42,817 bases of DNA from positions 1 to 42,817 of IMG/VR virus record IMGVR_UViG_3300020156_000048; one strand, given 5' to 3'. Below the pieces are notes generated by a model, which saw only the letters and a program-made list of their open reading frames with translations, was not told where the DNA came from and made no database searches. Within the stretch, counting starts at the first letter, position 1; each line of letters starts with the position of its first letter. Made by a program: the position numbers and the translations under genes. Positions 1-42,817 of this stretch are shown here, piece after piece. This DNA is from a virus.

Positions 1-150
1 ACGGCCGCACAGAGCGCCGCGTAGAGGTACAGGTCCGGGTTGCGGGTGAAGAGCGCGTTCGACTCGTCCGCCAGAGCCTCAAGCTTCTTGTAGTACCAAA
101 GCTCAATCGTGTAGGACGAGTCAGGCAGCGGCCCGAAGCGGATCTCGTCG
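1..150. repeat. terminal redundancy, left copy
   Basis: These 150 bases match the last 150 bases of the window (42668-42817) except at one position, G24 versus T42691. This is what an assembler leaves when it linearises a circular or circularly permuted molecule. The overlap lies inside the adaptor gene, and the mismatch is a synonymous Leu codon change (CTC/CTA). It is not a classical long direct terminal repeat of a T7-like phage, although a physical 150-bp repeat cannot be excluded from sequence alone. Confidence 0.95.
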
Positions 151-473
151 CCAAAAATCGTGAAATACTTGGGGCACCCGGAAGTCGTCGTTGGGTACAT
201 CGTGAAGAGCGCATCCGGGGCGACGTACTGGAGCGGGATGATCCTGCCGCTGGTCGTCAGCCATACCGAACGCATCTCCAGGAAGTCGGACGGGACGTTT
301 ACATAGTCGTCCGTCGTCGCGGTAACGCGCTGCTCTTGCAGGCGGGAACGGACTTCGCGCCCAATACGCGCCTCGCCTATAACGATGAACTCAGGGATAC
401 GGCTAGAGAGGTCGCTACGGTCGAGCCAGTTGCTTACCGCCGTTTGCAGCTCGGCATAGATAGAGATCGCCAT
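1..473 (-). CDS. head-tail adaptor protein, SU10/P22 gp4-like (N-terminal part, crosses circle junction)
   Basis: The reading frame starts at ATG 473 after a clear AAAGGA ribosome site and runs off the window start. Joined to 42541-42667 it makes a closed 199-residue protein (600 bp with stop). The N-terminus has helices typical of the short-tail adaptor family that docks under the portal, with a later segment about choosing a DxYVxVPSDFLE pattern and a Tyr/Trp-rich IELWYYKKL segment, both familiar from this family. Its position upstream of the gp10-like hub gene and downstream of coat fits the P22 order coat-gp4-gp10. The predicted role is to extend the portal and receive the tail hub during assembly. 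Family assignment is by pattern recognition, not a profile search. Confidence 0.82.
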   Translation of the reverse strand, partial: MAISIYAELQTAVSNWLDRSDLSSRIPEFIVIGEARIGREVRSRLQEQRVTATTDDYVNVPSDFLEMRSVWLTTSGRIIPLQYVAPDALFTMYPTTTSGCPKYFTIFGDEIRFGPLPDSSYTIELWYYKKLEALADESNALFTRNPDLYLYAALCAA

Positions 474-495: not shown

Positions 496-1113
496 TTATT
501 TCCAATGCGCCTCCATCCAGTCGGTCTTGATGTCGGGCGCTTTGGGCAATCCGTGAAAGCATACGAGGGACGTGTTCTCAGGCAGCCCCTTCGTGCAGTG
601 ATACTTGTACGACTTGATCGTTTCCATCGGCAGTCTGTCGATCTGCCTGCCAAGCGAATCCCAAATGAACGCTTGGTCCCCGAGGTACGTCCCGTCCCTG
701 CGCTCCTCGTGGTACTGAATCCACTTGTACGGCCTCTCGCAGAAGCGGTCGTAGACCTTCCTGAGAGGCTTGCGGAACCACATCACCCCGGACCCGACCA
801 TCTGCGGATTGTTGAAGTTCCGCAGCATCGCGAAGTCGGATTGGATGTCTGCTAGGTGATCCAGGCTCCCTGTTACTACCGTGTCCAGGTCAAGATAAAG
901 CGTCGGCCCATCCACCACCCTGAAGACTTCGAGCTTCGCCCACCACCCCGGCCAGTCATGCCGTAGAGGGATCCGTTCGCAGGGAACATCAACATCCGAC
1001 AGACATTGGAAGGTGTACGGAATGGTCGTGTTTCTCGCCACTCCATCCCGCAACTTCCTGACCCACTCCGCGTCGTACTCGCCCCCAGACTTGAGGACAC
1101 AGACAACCCTCAT
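496..1113 (-). CDS. glycosyltransferase-like protein with DxD motif
   Basis: A 205-residue protein. The start is taken at ATG 1113 because its ATGA overlaps the stop of the preceding gene, rather than the longer upstream extension. Residues 72-78 read LYLDLDT, the nucleotide-sugar/metal-binding DxD (D75, D77) of GT-A-fold transferases, followed by TGSLDHL. A later GDQAFIWDSLG segment also fits GT8-like and related families. No signal peptide or membrane segment is seen, so it would act in the cytoplasm. It is the last of three overlapping sugar-modification genes between coat and adaptor, so it should be expressed late with virion proteins. Acceptor and sugar are unknown. Confidence 0.75.
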   Translation of the reverse strand: MRVVCVLKSGGEYDAEWVRKLRDGVARNTTIPYTFQCLSDVDVPCERIPLRHDWPGWWAKLEVFRVVDGPTLYLDLDTVVTGSLDHLADIQSDFAMLRNFNNPQMVGSGVMWFRKPLRKVYDRFCERPYKWIQYHEERRDGTYLGDQAFIWDSLGRQIDRLPMETIKSYKYHCTKGLPENTSLVCFHGLPKAPDIKTDWMEAHWK

Positions 1114-1556
1114 TTGGGCAGCATCACCACCGTCCAGGGAACATGCTTGTGGAAAACCTGGATTTCCCTGTAATCCTGAATCAGCGACTTCCACTCCGCG
1201 TTCTTGATCGCCACGTTGGCGTCGTGCATTACCACGACATCAGCGACCTTCGCCAATGCGGGGAGTCTCTTGATCCGGTCCCTAACCGCTTCCTCGGAGT
1301 CGAGAAACACCATGCCCCACTTGCCTTCAGGAGGAGTCCAGTTGCTCCAGTCCACCAGCTCCACGTCGGCAATCTCGGTGAACTGCGTCGCCCATTCTTC
1401 GTTTGATGCCTGAACCAGAAACTTCCTCTCCTGCGCCGCGCAGATCGAAGCCAGGACAGGAGTTGAGTAATGCCCGCATCCAAGTTCCAAGATCGGGCCT
1501 TTCGAGTGCATCGCCGTCTCTACCAATGCTTCCAGGTGGGTGCTGTATGGATCCAC
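1110..1556 (-). CDS. methyltransferase-like (Rossmann fold) protein
   Basis: A 148-residue protein starting at GTG 1556, which shares one base with the TAG stop of the TPR-glycosyltransferase gene. The N-terminal PILELGCGHYSTPVL resembles the glycine-rich SAM-binding motif I of class I methyltransferases. Downstream, a hydrophobic MVFLDSEE strand and VVVMHDANV strand fit later strands of a Rossmann fold. It is short for a full methyltransferase, so it may be a minimal or degenerate member, or another Rossmann enzyme. Overlapping starts with both neighbours indicate translational coupling with two glycosyltransferases, which suggests modification of a sugar or of a glycosylated product. The substrate is not identifiable. 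Confidence 0.55.
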   Translation of the reverse strand: MDPYSTHLEALVETAMHSKGPILELGCGHYSTPVLASICAAQERKFLVQASNEEWATQFTEIADVELVDWSNWTPPEGKWGMVFLDSEEAVRDRIKRLPALAKVADVVVMHDANVAIKNAEWKSLIQDYREIQVFHKHVPWTVVMLPK

Positions 1557-2932
1557 TATTTACCCCACCGCAGCTTCAGGAGCTTCACCATGTCCTCTAT
1601 CGGCCAATCCTGCGTTTGCCGGAACAGCTTCAAACTCTTGTACCAAGGCAGCGTGTCGCCTTCGAGCCCGTAGAAGAACCTAGGCTTATTCGGCAGCAGG
1701 CACCAGCACTCCTTCCCTAGAGCCCCCGCTAGGTGCACCACCGACGTTGAAACAGAGATGACCAGATCCAGCTCCGCAACGAGGCCAGCGGTATCGTCGT
1801 AGTCATTGGTTCTGGTTGCTCGGGGATAATCGAGAATCCGCACCCCATGAAGTCTTTCCAGCTCCTCGATTTCCTCCGACCTGTCCTTGTACTCAAGACA
1901 GACCCACGTTGCGTCTATAGCCTTGAAGATCGGCAGTAACTGCTCTAGCTTGAGACTTCTCTTTGCCGACCCAGTGTTCTTCAGCCCGCCAGTCCAAGCA
2001 ACCCCGATAACCGGCTTGCGGTAGGTATCAAACAACGATCTCCACTGAAGTCGTCTTTCAGGATCTGCCTTCAGGTAAGGCGTCCCCGGAAAGTCCTCGT
2101 CCTTCTCCCTGAACATCGCCGGCAGGCAATCACTCGCGATGGAGTAATCCACCGCGTGGTCCCACTCTCGGTCTTTGAACCGCGTGCCGTAGACCTTTGC
2201 TTCGGAGAACGACCGCTTGAACAGCCCCTCCAGCCTGTGATCGCAATCCACGATCACTTCGGCGCGTTTGATGGCGTCCGGGATGCAGGAAGCGAAGGAG
2301 ATCTCGTCTCCTAAGCCCTGGTTTCCGTACACCACCACCGCCCCCTTCTGGCCCTCCCACATCGGCTCCTCAGGATTCATGTACGTCCTGATTTGCCTTT
2401 GCTTGTGCCTCCCCGCAGTCTCCCGGTAGAGCTTCCAGCCCTCCCAGTCCCGCTTCATCAGGAGCGCCATCGCCTTGTTATCGACGGCCTCCCAGGAGTT
2501 ATGCCCGGTCTGTTCTGCCCTTCGGACCCACTTCAGCGCTTCGTCAGGCTGGCACCTGTTCACGTATATAAGCGCCAGGTTCTGCATCGCCGCAGGGTTG
2601 TCCGGCTCGATCTGCAGAGCCTTCCTGAAGCACTTCTCCGCAGCGTCCAGATCCCACGTCTCCTGAAAGCACATGCCGGCGTTGTTCCACGGCTCGGCTC
2701 TTCCAGGATGCAACTGCGCAGCCCTCATAAAGAGCTGGTAGGCAATCCCGAACTTCTCCGTCTTCAGCGAGGAATACCCAAGCAGGAAAACAGCCATCGG
2801 GTTATTGAAGTCCTCGTCCAAGACTTCACTAGCTAGCTTCACCCCTTGGCCGTAGTCCCCTTCGGCCATCGCCCTTCTAGCTTGCTCTATCTTCCTAAGT
2901 GAATCTTGTTTGTCGCTTTGAGATACTTCCAT
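1556..2932 (-). CDS. TPR-repeat glycosyltransferase (GT9/GT41-like C-terminal domain)
   Basis: A 458-residue two-part protein. Residues about 15-170 form tetratricopeptide repeats, with typical AEPWNNAGMCF and CFRKALQIEPDNPAA segments. Residues about 195-455 look like a GT-B transferase: GNQGLGDEISFAS resembles the N-terminal glycine loop of heptosyltransferase-like enzymes, GVAWTGG opens the second Rossmann domain, and VSVSTSVVHLAGALGK is the typical nucleotide-sugar site of the GT9/GT41 clan. The TPR part would bind a protein or glycan acceptor. The gene overlaps the preceding small gene by 46 bp and sits in the late structural operon, so it likely acts during virion assembly or on the cell late in infection. 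The acceptor is unknown. Confidence 0.8.
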   Translation of the reverse strand: MEVSQSDKQDSLRKIEQARRAMAEGDYGQGVKLASEVLDEDFNNPMAVFLLGYSSLKTEKFGIAYQLFMRAAQLHPGRAEPWNNAGMCFQETWDLDAAEKCFRKALQIEPDNPAAMQNLALIYVNRCQPDEALKWVRRAEQTGHNSWEAVDNKAMALLMKRDWEGWKLYRETAGRHKQRQIRTYMNPEEPMWEGQKGAVVVYGNQGLGDEISFASCIPDAIKRAEVIVDCDHRLEGLFKRSFSEAKVYGTRFKDREWDHAVDYSIASDCLPAMFREKDEDFPGTPYLKADPERRLQWRSLFDTYRKPVIGVAWTGGLKNTGSAKRSLKLEQLLPIFKAIDATWVCLEYKDRSEEIEELERLHGVRILDYPRATRTNDYDDTAGLVAELDLVISVSTSVVHLAGALGKECWCLLPNKPRFFYGLEGDTLPWYKSLKLFRQTQDWPIEDMVKLLKLRWGK

Positions 2933-3231
2933 TCGGGGCTGTTAAGTAGCCTGAAGAGGAGTTTTTCGTTGCCGGGTCGCATGGGCCAGTTCTCCGACCC
3001 GTACTCAGACAGCCAGCGCATTTGCACAACAATGGGAATGGACGCGAAGTGCCACATCTCGTCCTTGATCCCCTTCTTGGTGTACTCGTCATCGTTCCTG
3101 AGGTCGTTCGTGACATCAAGAATCGTGTCTACATCCTGAACCGTCTCCACGTAAGACGTATTCGTTGTCTCGTCGTGGTGGAAAATCTCTGTGACCCCGG
3201 TAAACGGGTCGTGGTCGAGTATGCGTTTCAT
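2887..3231 (-). CDS. conserved phage protein encoded downstream of coat, unknown function
   Basis: A 114-residue protein with an acidic N-terminal half (KRILDHDPFTGVTEIFHHDE, then VETVQDVD) and a C-terminal part with tryptophans and HLGR at the end. I recognise this arrangement as a small protein commonly encoded next to the coat gene in SU10-like and other podoviruses, but its function is not known to me. The start ATG 3231 lies directly after the T-run of the coat-gene terminator and has no Shine-Dalgarno sequence, which is unusual. No other in-frame start conserves the N-terminal motif. Confidence 0.75.
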   Translation of the reverse strand: MKRILDHDPFTGVTEIFHHDETTNTSYVETVQDVDTILDVTNDLRNDDEYTKKGIKDEMWHFASIPIVVQMRWLSEYGSENWPMRPGNEKLLFRLLNSPEWKYLKATNKIHLGR

Positions 3232-3263
3232 AAAAACGGGAGGAGGCTGTTAACCCCCTCCCG
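3232..3263 (-). terminator. intrinsic terminator after major capsid gene
   Basis: On the minus strand an 11-pair GC-rich stem (3237-3263, two wobbles, 5-nt loop) is followed by TTTTT (3232-3236). It lies 9 bp past the coat stop and abuts the start codon of the next gene. It probably reduces read-through to keep coat expression high relative to downstream genes. Confidence 0.85.
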
Positions 3264-3272
3264 CCAAGTCGC

Positions 3273-4244
3273 TTACTTCGACGAATCCACGTCCGCAATC
3301 TTCGCGGACGAGGCAGCGTTACGGGCCTCAACGGTGAGTTCCGTAACGAGGTGCCACTTCTCCGAGTCGCCGGTCTTCGCCAGTTTCTCTTTCGTCATGC
3401 CACGGAGCTGGGCAAGCGCCCAGAAGTCCATGTCGAGAACGAGAACCGTGCGATCACGCGAGAAGCGCGACGGGACGATGCGATGCTCGCCAAAGTCCGA
3501 CACGTAGATGTCGGCCGCACCCACGATACGGGTGCCTTTGGCGGTCGTGCCCGCTTCCCGGTAAAGGGTCGCGATGCCCGCGAACGTCGAGATCTTCTTC
3601 TTCGCGCCCGGACCGACCAGAACGACAGTCGGGTTGCCACCCGCCGACCACGCGCTGGAGATCGCGGTCTTCAGGTGCTCTTCCGTCATCGAGCCGGTAA
3701 CGGTCGAATCGGTCGGAGCCGCCGTGTCGCCACTGGAGAAACCCGGAGTGGTTTGCGCCGTGCCACCACCCACCGACTGGTAGTTGGTGATCCACGCCTC
3801 CAGGCCGGCCATCTGGCGAGGAGTCGAGGCGTTACCAGCCGAGGAGCCCTGATTCTGGGTCGCGGCGAACTCGATGTCGCGCTTGATTTCCTTGCCGCGC
3901 TTCATCAGTTGGTACGCGATTTCCGAATCACGGCCAGCCTTGTCCACGGACTCTTGCGTGCCCGACACCTGGATCGTCTTCTTGAAGATCTGGGTGCGGT
4001 TGGACAGGCGAACGGTCGGAACAGCGGTGTTCACCGCCGAGTCGTCACCCTCGATGTTGCTGTTCTTCGCAGCAGCAGCGAGCGCGTCCGTTTGCCACTC
4101 GTGGTTGACGGCCTTGGCTTTCACCTTGGCAGCCATCGCAACGAACGGCGTCTCGGTCGGCGAGAGGTTGTAAATCATGTCGGTCAGGTCTTCCCTGTTA
4201 CCGACAGCTTGGTACGCCTGGAACGTCCCGGAAGGAGCGGTCAT
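3273..4244 (-). CDS. major capsid protein, DUF5309/SU10-type
   Basis: A 323-residue protein directly downstream of the scaffold gene, as expected for coat. The N-terminus has the recognisable NREDLTDMIYNLSPTETPF segment of the SU10/DUF5309 coat family, followed by KAVNHEWQTDAL and a VSGTQ.SVDKAGR segment. The C-terminal half has GAKKKISTFAG and DFGEHRIVPSR strands typical of an HK97-fold coat. It should build the icosahedral shell around the scaffold protein. Length fits the family. The high copy number expected for coat is consistent with the strong terminator directly after it. Confidence 0.9.
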   Translation of the reverse strand: MTAPSGTFQAYQAVGNREDLTDMIYNLSPTETPFVAMAAKVKAKAVNHEWQTDALAAAAKNSNIEGDDSAVNTAVPTVRLSNRTQIFKKTIQVSGTQESVDKAGRDSEIAYQLMKRGKEIKRDIEFAATQNQGSSAGNASTPRQMAGLEAWITNYQSVGGGTAQTTPGFSSGDTAAPTDSTVTGSMTEEHLKTAISSAWSAGGNPTVVLVGPGAKKKISTFAGIATLYREAGTTAKGTRIVGAADIYVSDFGEHRIVPSRFSRDRTVLVLDMDFWALAQLRGMTKEKLAKTGDSEKWHLVTELTVEARNAASSAKIADVDSSK

Positions 4245-4247
4245 GGC

Positions 4248-5273
4248 TTATTTCCCTTTTTGTTGTTTTTGTTTTGCAAGGTACAGCGCTACGAAGTCTT
4301 CCCCTCGCCCTGACTTCTTGAGCTTGGCGGAAAGTTCGCTCACTGCTTCTCTCGCGGGATTCGGCTTTTCAGCGCTTCCGGGTTTGATGACCTTGGGAAC
4401 CGCCACGACTCTCTTAGAAACCTCGGGCTTGGCTTGTTGAAGCTGCCTGTATTTCGCTGCGTCGTGGAAGACCTTAATCAACCGCGCATCTACTACGGGT
4501 GCTACTTCTTCGTTCTTGAACCCGTACTCTTTCGCTACGGTTCCAAGGACATTGTTGTAGAGGTCAACGTTCCACCCCGGAATCTCTGCCTCCAGGGTTT
4601 GCCTCGCCCTCTCGATTGCTTGTGACTGCGCCTGGCGCATGGCCTCTTGCTGTTGAGCCATCGCCGCACGCTGCTCCGACTCGATAGCCTGGAGCGTCTG
4701 GTTAAGCTGGATCTGCTTGAAGAAGATCCTTTGGGCTTCCGCAGGGTCTTCCATCGCCAGCTTGTTTAGGTCGATCTGCTGCAGCTCAGGGGCAACCGTC
4801 TTCAGGACGAGCTGCTTGTGCTGCTCAAGTCTTTGCAGGTATTCCTGTTGGGCCTGGAGCTGGGCCTGCTGCACCTTCTGGGCAACCTCGGCCTGCTCTG
4901 CTTTGACCTTCTGGATGTTGCGGTGGTAGTCCTGCTTGGCTAAATACCCTTCCCGCAACTCCTTCAGGCTGAGTTTCTTTGACTCTTTGCCTGAATCGGT
5001 CTTGTACTCGATCTCGAAAAGCGGCTCGTCTTCCGGAAGCTCGATCTGCGACTCTTCCGCAGGGGCTTCTTCGGCGGGCTCTGCCTGCTGCTCTACAGGA
5101 GCGCCTTCCTCGGTCCGTGGTACGGAGGTATTCTCCGGGTGCTCAGGGTCGTTGTCCGGGTTCTCCGATACCCACTTCGTGAGACTCGCAAGATCTGCTT
5201 CTTCTTGGTGGATAGGATGAGCCGGCGTTTGCGCTTGGGCCGGAGCCGGCGCAGCAGCTTGGGTCTGTTCCAT
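4248..5273 (-). CDS. capsid scaffold protein
   Basis: A 341-residue, highly charged protein. The first 100 residues are acidic and Pro/Glu-rich, residues about 115-230 are Gln/Ala/Glu-rich with strong coiled-coil character, and the C-terminus is basic (SAKLKKSGRGEDF to KQKQQKGK). This matches the composition of P22-type scaffolds, whose basic C-terminal helix binds coat. It sits immediately before the coat gene (4 bp apart). A good AAGGAAG ribosome site precedes ATG 5273. The assignment rests on position and composition; sequence identity of scaffolds is low in general. Confidence 0.82.
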   Translation of the reverse strand: MEQTQAAAPAPAQAQTPAHPIHQEEADLASLTKWVSENPDNDPEHPENTSVPRTEEGAPVEQQAEPAEEAPAEESQIELPEDEPLFEIEYKTDSGKESKKLSLKELREGYLAKQDYHRNIQKVKAEQAEVAQKVQQAQLQAQQEYLQRLEQHKQLVLKTVAPELQQIDLNKLAMEDPAEAQRIFFKQIQLNQTLQAIESEQRAAMAQQQEAMRQAQSQAIERARQTLEAEIPGWNVDLYNNVLGTVAKEYGFKNEEVAPVVDARLIKVFHDAAKYRQLQQAKPEVSKRVVAVPKVIKPGSAEKPNPAREAVSELSAKLKKSGRGEDFVALYLAKQKQQKGK

Positions 5274-5527: not shown

Positions 5528-5787
5528 AGTCCAAACCTTTCCTTCAGCGAGGGTCGGAAGTTGTACTCAACGATCTTGGCCGTTTCGATATGACCTTCGA
5601 TTGAGCCTTTGATGAGGTCGAACACTTGGCAGGCAATCGCGGCCTTGAACGCCTCTTTGTCCGTCTTAGCCGCCCTGACAGCCCGGTTAAGGGCATCCTC
5701 TGCGGCCTGAAACGCTTCCATCAGCATCGGATCGTTCAGGAGTTGCTTGGCTCGTTCCGCTCTAGCCTTCGCTTCGTCAGGGGTCAT
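5524..5787 (-). CDS. small hypothetical protein following portal
   Basis: An 87-residue, mainly helical, charged protein (Ala/Lys/Glu-rich N-terminus, then FKAAIACQVFDLIKGSIEG). It starts within the last codons of the portal gene (ATGA-type 4-bp overlap at 5784-5787), so it is translationally coupled to it. Small helical proteins of this kind are common after portal in SU10-like phages. Function unknown. Confidence 0.65.
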   Translation of the reverse strand: MTPDEAKARAERAKQLLNDPMLMEAFQAAEDALNRAVRAAKTDKEAFKAAIACQVFDLIKGSIEGHIETAKIVEYNFRPSLKERFGL

Positions 5788-7919
5788 TCAGTCTCTTTTG
5801 CCTTCGGTTTGGCTTTCGCCTTCTCTCGCTGCATGGCGATGTTCGCGGCGGTCTTTTCCCGTTCCATCTGCATCCCAGCGGCGGCTTTAGCCCTCTCCAG
5901 CTCAATCTCAAGCTGGAGCTTCACTTTCTCCATCTCCAGTCGGTCGAGTTCGCGCTGGTGTTCAGCAACGGCTTTGTCCCGCTCCATCTGGGCTTGGAAC
6001 TCGGCCTTTTCCCGCTCCAGCTGCATCCGGGCTTGATCCATCTGCGCTTGGTGGACCATCTTTTCCTGCTTCTGCTGGGCACCGACTTCCGCCTTTTGGG
6101 CCTGAATCTGCAGCTTCGCCTGATCGGCTTGCATCTTGGCTTGAACCTCAACCATCTTGGGATCCGGTTGAGGCGGCGCGGGAGGAATCTCCTCCGGATG
6201 CGTGAAGAACAGCTCGTGGCCCTTGATGTTCTGGGCCTCAAGTAGCTTCGTAGCGGTGTTGTAGATGTTCACCGGCTGCACGATCGGCAACCCGCCTTGC
6301 AGAGCCATCATCTGGAATTGGATGGTCTGCATGAGGGCCTGGATCTGCATGTCTTTAGACCCTGTGCCCAGTCCAACCGTCACCGTCAGGTCGAACTTAC
6401 TGGTCCATTCCCTCGGGTCCATCGGCACCCACTCGTTGCGGAGGCGGATTACCTTGGCGTGGTCCTGATGTTTCTGCACCCGCTCCAGAATCGCGTAGAA
6501 AAGGTCTTTAACCCCAGTCTCCGCAAAGACGCGAGCAATAAGCTCCACCCTTGCTTGAGCCGCAGACATGATCTGGTTAATGCCCGTCGCAGTCTTGTTG
6601 AGACTGTCGGCGTCGATGCCCTGGTTGTACCGAGTAACGCCCGTCCGGTTCTCTTTGATAACGTCGATGTACTCAAGGAGGTTAAATGCGGGAGCCCCGA
6701 GGAGAGGCGGTTGCATCGGCTTGACCGCATCAAACGTTTTAACTCGGACAATGCCGCCCGGTCGCGAGGTGAGCAAATCATCGATGTTCACCATCCCATC
6801 GAGAGCCATGTATCTACCGTTGTTGGCGAGATACATGTTGTCCAGAATCTGACGGAAAACAGTAGACTTCAGGAGCTGCAGATCCATCACCAGATCCGCA
6901 ATGCTCATCCCGTACAGCTTGTGAGGCAGAATAATCGGGGTGATCGTGACGAAAGGAATCGAATCGACTTCCTCGTTCTCGATGACCCTATCCCCGGCCA
7001 TCGTGATCTTGCGAAGCTCCGCAACCCCGTCCCCGTCAACGTCCACCTTCATGTAGGCTTCGGCGAGCCACACATACCGGGAACTCTTGTTGGTGGGGTT
7101 GTCTCCCTCGTCCGTCTCGTCGAAGGCGTAACGGCTGATACGCTCCTCGTTGAAGTCGTCGTCCTCGTAGGAAGGAAGACTTTCTGCTTCCTCCTTGCTC
7201 ATCAGCCCCATCTCCACGATTTCGGAGACGGTGACTCGGCGACGATGGCAGACAAACCGATTGCGCTTAAGAGGAGCAACCGGGTAGCGGTTTACGAGGA
7301 CTTCTTCCGGGGGAACGGGGAGAACGCAGCACTTGCCGGTCTCGGTCTTCTTCCTGAGCTTGACAGCGTGAACCCTGGAGGTAACTCCAGAGATAACGTC
7401 TACCGTCGCGTCTTCCGTATGCTCAACAGGCTCCACGTCGGGATCCTGGAGGAGCATCGCAAACTCGTCGTCCGTCAGGTTCTCGTAAGTCTCAGTTTTA
7501 TATTCGGTGTACTTCTCCCAGTACACCTTCAGGAAACCGTTCTTAGAGAGAAGCGCGTCCTTGAACCACGTATAGAGGGCTAGAAAGCCGTCGTTCTGCC
7601 TTTGGAAGACGTGGTTAACGTAGTCGGTGGCTTGTTGGGCGGCTTTCTCATCTTCCGGCCCCTGCGGCTCGAACCTTACGATGGTGTCGCCACCCGTAAA
7701 GATCCGCATGATGGAGGGCATGATCCATTCAATCGTGTCCGCAACGTCACGGGAAACGTAGGCAGACCGCCCCTCGACCTCGTTACCAAAGGGCTCCCCG
7801 TGGTAGTAGTCGAGCGCAAGTTTCCTCTGGTTGGAAAGCTCGCTTGAGTTGTACCCGACAGCCCCCCTTATTTCTTCGTCCAGCAGGGCTCGGAGTTCAG
7901 TGTCCGTTAGCTTCGCCAT
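5784..7919 (-). CDS. portal protein, P22/SU10-like
   Basis: A 711-residue protein, near the length of P22 gp1 (725). Characteristic N-terminal segments are SSELSNQRKLALDYYHGEP and GRSAYVSRDVADTIEWIMPS with IMRIFTG. The core continues with a long stem and wing region, and residues about 595-711 form a Gln/Lys/Glu/Ala-rich helix resembling the barrel extension of P22-type portals. It would form the dodecameric ring at one vertex through which DNA is packaged and ejected. It follows the large terminase and a small zinc-ribbon gene, in the normal order. Confidence 0.93.
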   Translation of the reverse strand: MAKLTDTELRALLDEEIRGAVGYNSSELSNQRKLALDYYHGEPFGNEVEGRSAYVSRDVADTIEWIMPSIMRIFTGGDTIVRFEPQGPEDEKAAQQATDYVNHVFQRQNDGFLALYTWFKDALLSKNGFLKVYWEKYTEYKTETYENLTDDEFAMLLQDPDVEPVEHTEDATVDVISGVTSRVHAVKLRKKTETGKCCVLPVPPEEVLVNRYPVAPLKRNRFVCHRRRVTVSEIVEMGLMSKEEAESLPSYEDDDFNEERISRYAFDETDEGDNPTNKSSRYVWLAEAYMKVDVDGDGVAELRKITMAGDRVIENEEVDSIPFVTITPIILPHKLYGMSIADLVMDLQLLKSTVFRQILDNMYLANNGRYMALDGMVNIDDLLTSRPGGIVRVKTFDAVKPMQPPLLGAPAFNLLEYIDVIKENRTGVTRYNQGIDADSLNKTATGINQIMSAAQARVELIARVFAETGVKDLFYAILERVQKHQDHAKVIRLRNEWVPMDPREWTSKFDLTVTVGLGTGSKDMQIQALMQTIQFQMMALQGGLPIVQPVNIYNTATKLLEAQNIKGHELFFTHPEEIPPAPPQPDPKMVEVQAKMQADQAKLQIQAQKAEVGAQQKQEKMVHQAQMDQARMQLEREKAEFQAQMERDKAVAEHQRELDRLEMEKVKLQLEIELERAKAAAGMQMEREKTAANIAMQREKAKAKPKAKETE

Positions 7920-8118
7920 TTACGCCTTTGTTCTTTTTGTTTTTGGCGCACTTCACAACATGGAAGTGGTACGCCGGCTGCTCGCCGCAGTGCGGGCACA
8001 TCTTCCGGACCTGTTTCTCTTCCGGCTGCTTCGCCTCCAGAGCGCCTACGCGGTCCCTGAGAGCCGTTAGTTCCTCTTGCATGACGCGGAAGGCGGTTTT
8101 GAGCTCTAGCGGCGTCAT
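7897..8118 (-). CDS. small coiled-coil zinc-ribbon protein
   Basis: A 73-residue protein with an N-terminal helical heptad region (about 1-30) and a CPHCG motif plus H-x-H and a later Cys, fitting one zinc site. It overlaps the terminase stop by 4 bp and the portal start by 23 bp, so it is tightly coupled to both. Its place between TerL and portal suggests a packaging accessory role; this is inference only. Confidence 0.65.
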   Translation of the reverse strand: MTPLELKTAFRVMQEELTALRDRVGALEAKQPEEKQVRKMCPHCGEQPAYHFHVVKCAKNKKNKGVNGEANGH

Positions 8119-9533
8119 ACAACTCCAATCTGCGGGTAGACGATCTTCTTGCCGAACTCGCTCGCCGCTTCGGCAGTCGTGGAATGCAAAGCGACGTACT
8201 GCAGCGCATCGTGAGCGTGCGAATACTCGTTCTTGTTTGGAATGTCCCGGTACTGCGCTTCCCAGCCGCTCACCTGGACGCGCTTGAAGTGATATCCACC
8301 CAAAAAGCCCTTGCGGATGTACTTCGCATTCGGGCTCACCGCTAAACCGGGTTGACCATCCGCAACAAGCTTCGTCAGGTACTTCTTGACCGCCTCCTGT
8401 CGCATCTTCTGGTCGTTCGAGATGGCGGGCATCGCAACAAACCCTTCATCAGCAAGGACCATGAAGGCCGTTTTCTCGTCGGAATCGGCCCGCTTGACCC
8501 CAGAAGGATCCCCAACGCATTGAAACTTGTAGCCGGGGAAGTTCTCTGCCAGGAACGGCTTGAGAATGTCCCTCGCGAACTGCTGAATCCCCATCGTGGA
8601 GTCTTCAACGATGTCCGCGTAGACCCTTAACTGGCCCATCGGCGAGACCTGGCAGATAACAGCGGCCGGATGCCCGAAATCCAAGCCGATAAGGAGAGGC
8701 TTATCGGGGTACGGCTTTACGTCCCTCACATGAAAGTCGTCGTTGTACTGGGAGTAAACCGGCTTCCCAGTCGTTACGACCCCGTACCTCGCTCCTGCAT
8801 AAACCCGAATCCACTCTTTAGCTTTGCCGGCGATCTGCTTCTGGTAGTACCCATAACCACCGGGGAGGTTTTGAATGTTTTCAGCTTCTGGATGAGGCAC
8901 CCAGACACCGTTCTTCTCCTCCAGACCGCCAGGCTGCTTGTAGATCGCAAAACCCTCGGGTCTTTCTTCCTCGAAGATCTTGTAAATCCAATGGTCGGTG
9001 TCCGGCATGTTCGTATCCCCGAACACACCGTAGAAAGTCGGGCCACCCCACCTCTGAGGCGGATAGCGACCGACCCGCTGGGTCGCCATATCAAAAACCG
9101 CCTTCGGAACCTCTGAAGCCTCCGAGATCGCCGCCCATGTCAATTCAAGAGACTTGAGCTTTCCAACATCCTCCGGTCGATCAAGAGCGAGAAACAGAAT
9201 CTCGCACTTCACCCGCGTCTTGTCCGGTAAATAAAAATCCAGCTTCGCCGTGATCGGAGACGCCCAGTTGATCGGAGCTACAGACTCAGGAAACCACTCC
9301 TGGAAGCTCTTGATGACCGTGCTACGAAGCTCCGGGTAGGTGTTCCTCAACACCATCCCACGGCTGTACCTGACGCCTTCGTACGGCTCCTGGGACATGC
9401 TGATCGACATCCCCTTCATCAGGGAGCCAACCGTCTTCCCCGAGCCCACAGGCCCGCCAATCATGCTTACGAAGCTTCTGTCTAGGATGTACTCCCGGCA
9501 CACCGGGCCAGGAGGCGAGTAACTAATGTCCAC
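8115..9533 (-). CDS. terminase large subunit
   Basis: A 472-residue packaging motor. The Walker A motif is GGPVGSGKT (26-34). A Walker B-like strand LTWAAISEASE carries the coupling acidic residues. The C-terminal RNase H-fold nuclease has LLIGLDFG, VGDPSG and a distal HAHDALQ carrying the third acidic residue. It would cut concatemers and pump DNA through the portal. The start GTG 9533 has no close Shine-Dalgarno; translation is probably coupled to the upstream gene, whose stop lies 9 bp inside. The P22-like head module suggests headful packaging, but that is inference. Confidence 0.95.
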   Translation of the reverse strand: MDISYSPPGPVCREYILDRSFVSMIGGPVGSGKTVGSLMKGMSISMSQEPYEGVRYSRGMVLRNTYPELRSTVIKSFQEWFPESVAPINWASPITAKLDFYLPDKTRVKCEILFLALDRPEDVGKLKSLELTWAAISEASEVPKAVFDMATQRVGRYPPQRWGGPTFYGVFGDTNMPDTDHWIYKIFEEERPEGFAIYKQPGGLEEKNGVWVPHPEAENIQNLPGGYGYYQKQIAGKAKEWIRVYAGARYGVVTTGKPVYSQYNDDFHVRDVKPYPDKPLLIGLDFGHPAAVICQVSPMGQLRVYADIVEDSTMGIQQFARDILKPFLAENFPGYKFQCVGDPSGVKRADSDEKTAFMVLADEGFVAMPAISNDQKMRQEAVKKYLTKLVADGQPGLAVSPNAKYIRKGFLGGYHFKRVQVSGWEAQYRDIPNKNEYSHAHDALQYVALHSTTAEAASEFGKKIVYPQIGVV

Positions 9534-25980: not shown

Positions 25981-26168
25981 GCCAATGGATTTCTTTCCGA
26001 GACCGCCTTCCTACTCACGAGGACGCCAACGAGAAGGGCGAGGTGGAACTTGCGGAGACCAACGGCCAGCGTCGCCGAGGCTTATGGGATTGGATTCCGC
26101 CGAATCACCCTCAAGCCAAGGATTTATGGCGCGTGAACGGATTTGCCGCATGGAGACGCATTCTGTGA
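25977..26168 (+). CDS. DUF551-like small protein
   Basis: A 63-residue protein beginning WISFRDRLP, the hallmark of the DUF551 domain of many Gram-negative phages. It lies in an early accessory block. Function unknown. Confidence 0.6.
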   Translation: MSQWISFRDRLPTHEDANEKGEVELAETNGQRRRGLWDWIPPNHPQAKDLWRVNGFAAWRRIL

Positions 26169-26196
26169 GACCGACTCTGGACTGCACGAAGGGAAA

Positions 26197-26901
26197 ATGA
26201 AGAAAGAAGTCATAGGCGATGCGACGCTCTATCTCTGCGACTGCGCCGAGGTCGAGATTGCCCATGATCTGCTCGTCACCGACCCGCCCTACGGCATGAA
26301 GTACGAGAGCGGCAGGGCTGGCGGGAAATGGGGATCTATCGTCGGTGACGACGATCTTGACGGCGTACACGCCCGGCTCGCGCACGTCCTTAAGGGCCTT
26401 CGCAGGGGCAGGCACGCCTATATTTTCGGGAACGCGCTGGACGCCTCCAAGCTACCTCTGTGCGGGCTGGCCGAACTAATTTGGGACAAGCAGATTATCG
26501 GCATGGGCGACCTGACGCAGCCTTGGGGGCCACAGCATGAGCGGATCACCTTCGCCGTATATGAGCACAGCAAGGCCAACCGTGAGAAGGGCATGGGGAA
26601 CCTTGCGGCCAGGATTCGCAAGGGCAGCGTACTCCGTAGCCTCCGAGCCCATAGCGGCGGGGTGAAGCATCACCCGACCGAGAAGCCAGTAGACATCCTC
26701 CGGCAGCTTATCGAGTCAAGCAGCATCCTCGGGGAGACGGTTTACGACCCGTTCATGGGTAGCGGAAGCACGCTAGTAGCAGCGCTCATGGAAGGCAGGA
26801 AGGCGGTCGGCTGCGAGATTGAGGGACGCTACTTTGAGACGGCTTGCAGGCGCGCCACAGAGGCTCAGCGGCAATCCGCACAGGTTGACGCGTTCGCATG
26901 A
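26197..26901 (+). CDS. DNA adenine/cytosine-N4 methyltransferase
   Basis: A 234-residue enzyme. The catalytic DPPY (residues 29-32) precedes the SAM-binding DPFMGSGSTLVAAL, so motif IV comes before motif I, the beta-class order. Also seen are HHPTEKPVDIL before motif I and GCEIEGRYFE after it, all typical of N6_N4_MTase enzymes. ATG 26197 is chosen after a GAAGGGA site. No restriction partner is nearby, so it likely protects phage DNA or changes host methylation. Target sequence unknown. Confidence 0.9.
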   Translation: MKKEVIGDATLYLCDCAEVEIAHDLLVTDPPYGMKYESGRAGGKWGSIVGDDDLDGVHARLAHVLKGLRRGRHAYIFGNALDASKLPLCGLAELIWDKQIIGMGDLTQPWGPQHERITFAVYEHSKANREKGMGNLAARIRKGSVLRSLRAHSGGVKHHPTEKPVDILRQLIESSSILGETVYDPFMGSGSTLVAALMEGRKAVGCEIEGRYFETACRRATEAQRQSAQVDAFA

Positions 26902-27550: not shown

Positions 27551-27886
27551 ATGGAACTGCTGACGGTCGAAGACTGCGCCGCCAAGGGCAAGTGCTCCCC
27601 GCGTACTATCCGCAGGGAAATCATGCTCGGCAGGCTCAAGGCCGTCCGTTTGCGGTCCCTTGTTAGAATCCGGCCACAAGACTGGGAGGCTTACCTGTGC
27701 CAATCCGGCGTCACGGCAGGGGATTTGAGGTACGAATCCAGCACGGCGGACGGAGAATTAGCAAGACTGTTGCGACTCGCGCCGACGCTCAGTACGTCGA
27801 AGCGAAGCTCCGGCAGCGCATCCACGACACAAAGGCGGGTCGTACCCCTACCTACTCGCTCGAAGAGGCATTCGTCCGCTGGCTGA
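27551..27886 (+). CDS. excisionase-like helix-turn-helix protein
   Basis: An 111-residue frame whose first 55 residues are a winged-helix HTH of the MerR/Xis kind: LTVEDCAAKGKCSPRTIRRE and then RSLVRIRPQDWEAYL. The following residues overlap the integrase frame by 190 bp and are less protein-like, so the frame may be longer than the functional domain. It lies directly before int, as xis does in many phages. It could direct excision or regulate int. Confidence 0.6.
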   Translation: MELLTVEDCAAKGKCSPRTIRREIMLGRLKAVRLRSLVRIRPQDWEAYLCQSGVTAGDLRYESSTADGELARLLRLAPTLSTSKRSSGSASTTQRRVVPLPTRSKRHSSAG

Positions 27887-28656
27887 ACGGGGAAGCCTCG
27901 CAGCTCAAGTCCAGGGACTCACTAGATTCCGTCGTCCGCAGGGTCTTCGATAAGGTCAAGGGAAGGCCCCTGCATGAGATCGTTGACGTAGCCGCCAAGG
28001 TCGAGGAGCAAGGCAGGAAAGACGGCCTACTCCCCGCCACCATCAACCGCCGCCTCGCCTGCCTCCGCAGGGTCGCCAAGCTGGCCTATCGCAAGTGGGG
28101 ATGGCTAGACAACGACTTGGGGGCCAAGATCCAGCTTCTAGGCGGGGAACGTAAGCGCTCCCGCTACCTGACCCAAGCCGAAGCGAAGCGGCTCATAGCG
28201 GCCTCCTCCGGGCCTATGCGGGAGGCTATGCGCTGGTTCCTGCTGACGGGGCTTAGAAGGGGGGAGTTTCTGAAGGTGACGCCAGAGAGCTTCCGGGACC
28301 GCCATTTGCTCGTCGAGATTTCCAAGTCCGGCAAGCCAAGGGCGATTCCATTGCCGGCCGAGCTGGACCCCAATAGGTTCCCTTACGGGCTGAACGAGAC
28401 GGCCTTGGAGAGAGGTTTCCGCGAAGCACGCTCTAGGGCTGGCCTGGAGGGCGTGTGGCTGCACGATCTACGCCGGACCTACGGGACATGGCTACTCCAG
28501 AACGGAGCCAGCCTGGCGGCTATACGTGACTTGCTGGGCCATTCCGACATCACCATGACTTCCCGCTACCTCGGAACCACGGCGACGGACCTCAAGGCTG
28601 CTGTGCGGGTTTTGGATCGCGTGGGGCTGTCGCGGGGCAAGAAAAGAGCGGCTTAG
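27697..28656 (+). CDS. int: tyrosine recombinase integrase
   Basis: A 319-residue integrase starting at GTG 27697. An arm-type N-terminal domain (RRHGRGFEVRIQHGGRRIS) is followed by a core-binding domain (about 55-140) and a catalytic domain with R187 (TGLRRGE), K213 (SGKPRAIP), H256 and R259 (LHDLRR), H282 (LLGHS) and Y291 (TSRYLG). All catalytic residues are present. Being the last gene of the early rightward operon mirrors lambda. It would insert the circular genome at a host attachment site. Confidence 0.93.
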   Translation: MPIRRHGRGFEVRIQHGGRRISKTVATRADAQYVEAKLRQRIHDTKAGRTPTYSLEEAFVRWLNGEASQLKSRDSLDSVVRRVFDKVKGRPLHEIVDVAAKVEEQGRKDGLLPATINRRLACLRRVAKLAYRKWGWLDNDLGAKIQLLGGERKRSRYLTQAEAKRLIAASSGPMREAMRWFLLTGLRRGEFLKVTPESFRDRHLLVEISKSGKPRAIPLPAELDPNRFPYGLNETALERGFREARSRAGLEGVWLHDLRRTYGTWLLQNGASLAAIRDLLGHSDITMTSRYLGTTATDLKAAVRVLDRVGLSRGKKRAA

Positions 28657-40764: not shown

Positions 40765-41073
40765 TTAGTTGCCCGTTAAAACGCGCATCTCGCGCCAAGT
40801 TCCAGGCGCACCAGCAGCAATACAAATCCATCCGATGATGATGTATCCGGATCCAGCCGTCCCAGACTCAATCGGGTTCGTGTTCCAAACCTTGTCGCCG
40901 ACCTGATACGCGACAGAATCTCCAGTAGGAGCAGCCTGCGCTGCGTTGTAGTTCTGGTAGATCCTGCCTTCAGAGAGGCGGTTGATCGCGTCCTCAACCT
41001 GCCGCACCAGCTCCGACATAAGAGCGTGGTCGTACTGCTTGTCTAGAAACTGCTCCAGATACAACCTAGGCAC
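40765..41073 (-). CDS. small virion-associated protein, 102 residues
   Basis: A 102-residue protein beginning with PRLYLEQFLDKQYDHALM and containing INRLSEGRIYQNYNA, a segment frequently seen in podovirus neck/tail proteins. The C-terminal part is beta-rich (GDKVWNTNPIESG). It overlaps the gp10-like gene by 8 bp. It may be a hub or plug factor; not established. Confidence 0.65.
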   Translation of the reverse strand: MPRLYLEQFLDKQYDHALMSELVRQVEDAINRLSEGRIYQNYNAAQAAPTGDSVAYQVGDKVWNTNPIESGTAGSGYIIIGWICIAAGAPGTWREMRVLTGN

Positions 41074-42541
41074 TGCCGTCCTCCGTCATCTGCACGTCCA
41101 AGATCCCAAGCTCTGTCGGCCCGGTAAACGTGAAGTCCAGGCTGTGCCACCTTGCGGATCTCTTGAGATCGAACTTCCCATTGCTAAGTGAAGTCGTCGC
41201 CCCGGTCGTGAGCGAATCCCCGAGGTTGTTTCGGTACTTGTTGACCAGACTCGCCGCAGTGGGAGCGGTGAAGAATCTCGGCCTCACTCTCAGGACCGTA
41301 GTGAACTGCTCATCGTCTCCAAAGTCTCCGAGCGAGAACCCGGAAGACGTTGACTCCCCATCCAGCGTCTGCAGCGTGTGAGAGGTGTTGAAGACAGCAG
41401 GTAACGGAGCCCCAGCCGTCCACACCGTCGAGTCGTAGGAGATGTCCGGAAGGTCGTCGTAAGTGGCGTAGGTATCGCCAAGGTCGTCATACGACAGGCC
41501 AACCGACGAATACTCCATCGCAAACTCAACCGACCGATCCGCCCTTCCCCACCGCTGCGTCTTGTAGTTGTAGACGACGCACTTATCCGGGTTGTTGTTA
41601 GCACCCGAGGGGTAGAAGAAGTAAACGACCGAATTAGCCCGGTCATGCAACGCAATCGCTCTCTCAGAGTAGGTCTGGTTCAGCTCGCTAAAGACCTGTT
41701 CCTTTACCCAACCCTGACCGATAGGCCGAGGTCTTCCACCGTTGAACTCGTAGAAGTCATCAAACCCCATGAAGATGTGCCGGGGTTCTTCTGGCGTTCC
41801 AACGTCCGCTACAGCCTCATGCGACAGCGCCCCGACCTGAGACGAAATCTCCCGGTCGAAGCTCCAGATCGAGGGTTGCCCTGCGTAGATCCCAAGGTGG
41901 ATGGACCGCTGCTTGTAGATGACGACGTGCGGGCCGAATCTCTTAATCGCACGAATCTTCCCCGGCGTTGAAGTGATAAGGCCGGTCGTGCATTCCGTGG
42001 AGATAGCCGGCGTCCAGTCGGTGTAATCGCCCTTAGCCGAGCACCACCACCTGTTAGGCGAATCTCCGAAGGTCGTCTCGTTCGTGTCCCCGAGGAAGAC
42101 GAACTGACCTACTACCTCCACCACCCCAGCCTTAGGAGCGTCCGCTACGTCAGCGAAAGCGCCGCTAGACGAAGACTGGAGAGTGTCGGACTTGGCAACA
42201 GCCAGCGACACGTCCCCGAACTGCGCGAACCTCCAGCGAAGGTCAGAGCCTAGGGAGTAGTCCCCACCAGAAGCCCTTGTCCGCTCCGTCCACGAGCCCC
42301 CAGCGATCTCGTAGAGGTCGGTAGATGTCCCAGCGAACACCCGCACCGACTCGTCCAGCTTCCGAACGGTGGCCCCACCTTGGCAGGCAGCAGCAAGAGC
42401 ACCTGTAATGCCGGACGGCTCCTGAAGGCTCGGCCCGCCCTTCATCCCCCTCACCGTGGGGATCATGTTCGTGCACTCCGTCAGCACCCCAGGCGTAGTA
42501 GGGGGCAGATCCGGCGCGTACCCTACGAGCTGCACTTTCAC
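41066..42541 (-). CDS. tail hub/DNA-stabilisation protein, P22 gp10-like
   Basis: A 491-residue protein, near P22 gp10 in length (472), starting at GTG 42541, which overlaps the stop of the adaptor gene by one base. Family-typical features are the N-terminal CTNMIPTVRGMKGGPS, RWRFAQFGDVSLAV, and YEFNGGRPRPIGQGWV, suggesting a beta-propeller-like fold. It would bind the adaptor and seal or extend the tail after packaging. Strong context with adaptor. Confidence 0.82.
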   Translation of the reverse strand: MKVQLVGYAPDLPPTTPGVLTECTNMIPTVRGMKGGPSLQEPSGITGALAAACQGGATVRKLDESVRVFAGTSTDLYEIAGGSWTERTRASGGDYSLGSDLRWRFAQFGDVSLAVAKSDTLQSSSSGAFADVADAPKAGVVEVVGQFVFLGDTNETTFGDSPNRWWCSAKGDYTDWTPAISTECTTGLITSTPGKIRAIKRFGPHVVIYKQRSIHLGIYAGQPSIWSFDREISSQVGALSHEAVADVGTPEEPRHIFMGFDDFYEFNGGRPRPIGQGWVKEQVFSELNQTYSERAIALHDRANSVVYFFYPSGANNNPDKCVVYNYKTQRWGRADRSVEFAMEYSSVGLSYDDLGDTYATYDDLPDISYDSTVWTAGAPLPAVFNTSHTLQTLDGESTSSGFSLGDFGDDEQFTTVLRVRPRFFTAPTAASLVNKYRNNLGDSLTTGATTSLSNGKFDLKRSARWHSLDFTFTGPTELGILDVQMTEDGSA

Positions 42542-42817
42542 TACGCCACCCGCATCTGCATGGCGGTCGATTCCCGACCCTTGCGCTCGTTCTCGTTGAC
42601 CTGGTTCTTGACCTGCTGATACAGCGACTCCCAGACCTGAATCCGGTTATCGTTCTTCAGGAACGGAACGGCCGCACAGAGCGCCGCGTATAGGTACAGG
42701 TCCGGGTTGCGGGTGAAGAGCGCGTTCGACTCGTCCGCCAGAGCCTCAAGCTTCTTGTAGTACCAAAGCTCAATCGTGTAGGACGAGTCAGGCAGCGGCC
42801 CGAAGCGGATCTCGTCG
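42541..42817 (-). CDS. head-tail adaptor protein, C-terminal part (continues at window start)
   Basis: Second piece of the adaptor gene whose start is at 473. The stop TAG (42543-42541) shares a base with the GTG of the gp10-like gene. The C-terminus carries KNQVNENERKGRESTAM and a final RVA. Bases 42668-42817 duplicate 1-150. Joining 473-1 to 42667-42541 gives exactly 200 codons, which supports circularity. Confidence 0.85.
   Translation of the reverse strand, partial: DEIRFGPLPDSSYTIELWYYKKLEALADESNALFTRNPDLYLYAALCAAVPFLKNDNRIQVWESLYQQVKNQVNENERKGRESTAMQMRVA
42668..42817. repeat. terminal redundancy, right copy
   Basis: Copy of bases 1-150 with T at 42691 where the left copy has G. The variant is synonymous, which suggests a real population polymorphism rather than random error. 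Confidence 0.95.

Follow-up and report, generated by a model that had tools for sequence, protein, structure and literature searches.

Genome organization and position of the cassette

The window, that is, the whole stretch of 42,817 nt analysed here, comprised an entire IMG/VR virus record (Table 1). Near-identical direct repeats, with one mismatch seen, were located at its two ends, and the adaptor gene, truncated at the left end, resumed at the right end, spanning the junction when the sequence was read as a circle; thus, the genome is essentially complete. Despite the terminal direct repeat, the database either labels the record as linear or gives it no end class. The genes on the minus strand were arranged in the order terL, portal, scaffold, major capsid protein (MCP), phrog_3982, the three-gene cassette, adaptor, and a further head protein here called nozzle. 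The presence of an integrase gene, overlapped by an excisionase-like orf, indicated that the phage is temperate, and the window is an essentially complete temperate SU10-like podovirus. A DNA methyltransferase was encoded in the early region.

All three orfs of the cassette were found on the minus strand at the coordinates of the original prediction, which had placed three overlapping genes between coat and adaptor; the orfs, their overlaps and the Pfam matches of the flanking MCP and SU10 adaptor were in agreement with this arrangement. The phrog_3982 gene overlapped the start of the gene for the TPR-glycosyltransferase (TPR-GT) by 46 nt, the stop of the TPR-GT gene and the start of the methyltransferase-like gene overlapped by 1 nt, the PmgQ-family glycosyltransferase gene overlapped the methyltransferase-like gene by 4 nt (ATGA), and a gap of 22 nt separated the cassette from the adaptor gene. 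This spacing would be consistent with translational coupling. In most relatives, whether or not they carry a TPR-GT, the small phrog_3982 protein was found at the corresponding position, having the MCP on one side and the TPR-GT or the adaptor on the other.

A strong terminator hairpin followed by a run of U residues was predicted at the boundary between the MCP gene and the cassette, and similar hairpins with a T run were present after the MCP gene in 37 of 73 loci versus 1 of 73 after the TPR-GT gene. The hairpin is likely an attenuator splitting the coat gene from the later head genes; such a terminator would allow the coat protein to be made in excess, with the enzymes and the adaptor produced at lower levels by read-through. 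The cassette had been described as lying inside the virion-protein operon; it does sit in the virion module, but the terminator parts it from the coat gene.

Table 1. Features of the window, in the order in which the minus-strand genes are arranged, followed by other features and by endonuclease-like genes of related loci
Feature	Coordinates	Strand	Details
Source, IMG/VR virus record IMGVR_UViG_3300020156_000048	1-42,817		whole record
Terminal direct repeat	1-150 / 42668-42817		about 150 bases
terL	8115-9533	-	
Portal	5784-7919	-	SU10_portal 3e-231
Scaffold	4248-5273	-	
Major capsid protein (MCP, SU10 family)	3273-4244	-	Pfam SU10_MCP E=1.6e-95; PHROG major head protein
Putative intrinsic terminator / attenuator, MCP-cassette boundary	3230-3265	-	14-bp stem, -23.9 kcal/mol, z -4.3, then UUUUU
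Small conserved protein, phrog_3982, between MCP and TPR-GT	2887-3231	-	PHROG 1.1e-11
TPR-GT	1556-2932	-	458 aa, ATG; Pfam TPR_2 5.8e-14
Short class I SAM-methyltransferase-fold protein	1110-1556	-	148 aa, GTG
DxD glycosyltransferase, PmgQ/HdmD family	496-1113	-	205 aa, ATG; PHROG 1962 glycosyltransferase 3.1e-44
SU10 adaptor, downstream boundary of the slot	3-473	-	Pfam SU10_adaptor E=3.3e-29
Further head protein (nozzle), phrog_3287	41066-42541	-	
Integrase	27697-28656	+	PHROG 6e-44
Excisionase-like orf	27551-27886	+	overlaps integrase
DNA methyltransferase	26143-26901	+	early region
HNH or other endonuclease-like genes in or beside the slot of related loci	L005 267-1115; L081 4436-4924; L118 11014-11466; L161 8475-8951		

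Proteins predicted for the three genes

The TPR-GT consisted of N-terminal TPR helices (about residues 5-171) and a C-terminal GT-B-like domain (about residues 190-456). In its AlphaFold model (pLDDT 93), the TPR helices were followed by a Rossmann-type alternation, giving a TPR superhelix fused to a GT-B domain, the architecture by which TPR-type protein O-glycosyltransferases are recognised. The top 50 matches of the model in a Foldseek search of the PDB were nearly all SPINDLY/OGT, with low full-length TM values (0.34-0.39), presumably because the two domains differ in arrangement. The TPR half also matched the TPRs of SPINDLY/OGT at the sequence level; together with the structural matches, this bore out the proposed resemblance to the acceptor-recognition part of protein O-glycosyltransferases. 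For the glycosyltransferase half, no Pfam or PDB match was obtained by sequence or profile, and the TPR-GT is therefore not filed as a member of GT41; comparison with GT9 models gave a weak match, far below the cut-off, to TIGR02193 over 35 residues (E=0.008). Among viral models, the closest Foldseek matches were uncharacterised or TPR-annotated phage proteins, and GT9/TibC-type glycosyltransferases were included among the partial structural matches.

The model of the middle gene product (pLDDT 94) had a minimal class I fold, that is, a seven-stranded Rossmann-like fold with motif I, the latter (ELGCGxYST) being conserved in 7 sequences. Its best Foldseek match was the O-methyltransferase 8c9v (E=3.7e-7, TM 0.67), and homologues were present in six viral-contig loci; no family-level sequence match was found in Pfam, PHROG and a further profile search.

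The third gene product matched PHROG 1962 over its full length (residues 1-205) and contained the DxD motif expected of the PmgQ type, with D75 and D77 being invariant (85/85 aligned sequences). It shared about 30% identity with PmgQ of phage P1. The ORF list also held a longer alternative of this gene (232 aa, GTG start). Structure prediction, suggested as a check, gave TPR plus GT-B-like for the first gene and a class I methyltransferase fold for the middle one, and the identification of sugar-modification genes as two glycosyltransferase-type proteins and a methyltransferase fold was supported.

Conservation of the slot and turnover of its cargo

The neighbourhood of the TPR-GT was examined in viral contigs scanned with a 20-sequence TPR-GT profile (A1), which detected at least 566 relatives. 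In the 64 non-redundant loci derived from the best 80 of these, the MCP gene lay at most 4 genes upstream of the TPR-GT gene in 42/45 and the adaptor or nozzle gene lay downstream in 57/58, counts that do not represent shares of all homologues, as many TPR-GT loci were picked by TPR-GT similarity and the best-scoring ones kept. The recurring order was MCP, phrog_3982, TPR-GT, and adaptor, and every head-module TPR-GT locus detected was on a metagenomic or MAG contig. A search with the MCP gave 21 informative loci in which the TPR-GT followed the coat gene, almost always directly after phrog_3982, and 38 others in which it did not; the closest MCP relatives, where informative, all had it. MW202512, a complete genome of metagenomic origin in GenBank, was laid out likewise and carried FkbM and GalT-like genes.

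The original prediction had called for a comparison of presence and absence across related genomes with conserved head genes. In this comparison the TPR-GT followed the coat tree: with 90 MCPs in the tree, 2 changes accounted for its presence, whereas shuffled labels gave an expectation of 23.4. Divergence of the TPR-GT tracked that of the portal (0.72) and the MCP (0.57), the values for MCP, portal and scaffold among themselves being 0.55-0.65, and the phage TPR-GTs formed nearly one group when compared with 71 cellular ones (3 changes versus 38). The TPR-GT is co-inherited with the head genes across the clade and near-universal there.

A search with the third gene (PmgQ-type) alone yielded further loci, among them L004 to L007. 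Two independent contigs, L004 and L005, possessed homologues of all three genes in the same slot and in the same order, with identities of 47/62/62% and 45/59/55%, respectively; L006 and L007 carried parts of the cassette. Since the three homologues keep slot and order in L004 and L005, the cassette is not a chance arrangement.

The genes following the TPR-GT were variable. In 56 complete slots, 37 gene orders were found between TPR-GT and adaptor, and 5 slots were empty. The cargo included GT8, GT9, GT4-like and other glycosyltransferases, FkbM and several class I methyltransferases, DegT aminotransferase, GDP-mannose 4,6-dehydratase, radical SAM proteins and PIG-L-like proteins. Three different cargos were present across the window and the three relatives closest to it by MCP, two of these relatives sharing an empty slot; in L002/L082 and L003/L083, where the slot is empty, a PmgQ-type gene was located before the portal gene instead. 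No convincing membrane segment was detected by hydropathy in any cargo protein, and no clear membrane transferase, flippase or polymerase was found among them. The slot between MCP and adaptor varied in length from 0.4 to about 8 kb and also took unrelated cargo, including HNH endonucleases, structural genes and unrelated ORFs; repeated insertions of HNH or other endonuclease-like genes are a possible driver of cargo exchange. A dedicated virion-glycosylation cassette had been expected to be unusual; instead, the slot proved to be a feature of the whole clade, in which the TPR-GT stays constant and the cargo varies.

In L008 and L011, both retrieved with the PmgQ-type gene, large sugar-biosynthesis islands directly preceded the adaptor. 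The L008 island included genes for a PfkB kinase, a cytidylyltransferase-like protein and a SIS protein, a set that recalls heptose synthesis, and the islands also encoded transketolase halves, DegT and an epimerase; no TPR-GT was present on the examined stretches of these two loci.

Proposed function, alternatives and known systems

The glycosyltransferase and methyltransferase folds, the TPR part, the place in the virion module, the co-inheritance with head genes, and a cargo with no clear membrane transferase or flippase together favour the soluble modification of a virion protein. The cassette probably O-glycosylates a freshly synthesised virion protein, a reading to which we assign a probability of roughly two in three. 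On the basis of the genes present, their predicted folds, the conserved gene order, the co-inheritance and the turnover of the cargo, we infer a cytoplasmic system in which the TPR superhelix would bind the fresh virion protein, the GT-B domain of the TPR-GT would put the first sugar on Ser/Thr, the PmgQ-family glycosyltransferase would then extend the glycan, and the methyltransferase would cap it by methylation. In relatives, extension and methylation would be performed by exchangeable glycosyltransferases, FkbM or other methyltransferases and sugar-nucleotide enzymes, so that each phage would make its own glycan; the benefit might be shielding or changed surface properties of the particle. 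Decoration of a virion protein, or alternatively of a host glycan late in infection, had originally been preferred to a role in lysogeny. Modification of a virion protein is indeed favoured, but since the phage is temperate, the argument against a role in lysogeny is drawn solely from operon position.

Position and abundance make the MCP the most likely acceptor. At MCP positions 135, 165 and 73, Ser/Thr was far commoner in phages with a TPR-GT (e.g., 52/63 versus 0/27); these positions were rejected as acceptor sites, the difference being a clade signal with only 2 independent contrasts on the MCP tree, and no MCP acceptor site can therefore be named. Partial distance correlations were likewise rejected as singling out the MCP, because the portal correlated with the TPR-GT at least as well, and no partner is named from them.

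Modification of host surface glycans is a common job of phage glycosyltransferases, and the enzymes could alter LPS or capsule, either in the lysogen or at a late stage of infection, giving superinfection exclusion or keeping progeny from adsorbing to debris. The temperate nature of the phage would agree with this, as would the similarity of the TPR-GT glycosyltransferase domain and some cargo to GT9 heptosyltransferases, which are normally LPS enzymes. However, lysogenic conversion genes usually lie outside the head operon, the slot lacks a flippase, a polymerase or a clear membrane protein, and the TPR-GT, near-universal in the clade and co-inherited with the head module, possesses a protein-binding TPR domain, which together render a host glycan an unlikely target. 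It is equally unlikely that the TPR-GT acts on a non-virion protein of host or phage, such as a host enzyme, a receptor or flagellin, and neighbours the coat gene for reasons of timing only. Timing would be enough to explain the location, and the precedent FlmG works on flagellin (PMC7591256), but a constant neighbour in very diverse phages and a core gene tracking the head fit a constant phage-encoded partner better; a flagellin motif occurred near a homologue in 1/74 bacterial-genome-contig loci, although this neighbour test is itself uninformative.

The variable length of the slot and the HNH genes and unrelated ORFs in it might also be explained if the region between coat and adaptor were a permissive insertion site gathering unrelated mobile cargo. 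This we regard as very unlikely, since the cargo in TPR-GT phages consists mostly of glycosyltransferase, methyltransferase and sugar genes, and turnover of the TPR-GT itself is rare. Phage glycosyltransferases are able to act on DNA (PMC12619734), and modification of phage DNA, as in T4-like and other hypermodified phages, would thus be conceivable; the TPR/OGT-like architecture and the late structural position make it extremely improbable, and no base-hydroxylating or base-precursor genes were seen beside the cassette.

Glycosylation of a virion protein may extend beyond the window. We propose tentatively, with slightly less confidence than an even bet would call for, that in the large clade of SU10-like podoviruses, mostly uncultured, O-glycosylation of the capsid or another head protein is a core step of morphogenesis, performed by a dedicated, coat-inherited TPR-GT and diversified by a hypervariable glycan locus resembling an O-antigen locus. 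If so, particles of a widespread environmental phage group would bear strain-specific glycans specified by their own genes, with consequences for how stable the particles are, how they attach and how hosts and predators recognise them, and for the assumptions made in structural work on phages. A constant TPR-GT with swappable cargo and an adjacent coat gene would furthermore offer a genetic system for studying TPR-guided acceptor choice, and the phage glycosyltransferases a possible toolbox for decorating protein shells.

Several known systems share parts of this arrangement. FlmG of Caulobacter crescentus is a soluble TPR-glycosyltransferase that O-glycosylates flagellin; its TPR domain is by itself able to bind flagellins, and efficient glycosylation depends on this domain (PMC7591256). 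The TPR-GT is likened to it by architecture, both having N-terminal TPRs and a C-terminal GT-B domain, being soluble and working with sugar-nucleotide genes; however, the acceptor of FlmG is flagellin and its donor a pseudaminic acid, whereas the TPR-GT is encoded by a phage head-module gene. OGT and SPINDLY (GT41), the best structural matches, likewise combine a TPR superhelix with GT-B, although the glycosyltransferase half of the phage protein is not recognisable as GT41 by sequence and its motif hint is GT9-like. The TibC/Aah protein heptosyltransferases and GT9 share a similar GT-B/GT9-like end motif (weak matches), and some phage relatives are annotated as TibC, but those annotations come without TPR. 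The DxD glycosyltransferase is homologous over its full length to PmgQ of phage P1 and HdmD of P7 (PHROG 1962); the P1 pmgQ copy was scored as non-essential and has the phosphatase gene ppp as its neighbour, with no adjacent TPR-GT in the annotation.

Virion glycosylation by phage glycosyltransferases is, according to passages of PMC12363180, established in mycobacteriophages Che8, Corndog and Myrna, where capsid and tail tube proteins are involved; passages of PMC11256854 also describe it, and both papers cite Freeman et al. 2023. The likeness lies in phage-encoded glycosyltransferases and a virion-protein target, the latter being proposed here from genes alone, whereas the phages and the enzymes are different and the passages of PMC12363180 considered do not mention a TPR-GT. 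In the open-licence literature, no phage head module with a TPR-GT or FkbM cassette was found. In mycobacteriophages, we know of no hypervariable cargo slot flanked by MCP and adaptor. A clade-wide TPR-GT anchor accompanied by variable cargo would, provided that a virion protein is the acceptor, appear by comparison with these systems to be a new form of virion glycosylation.
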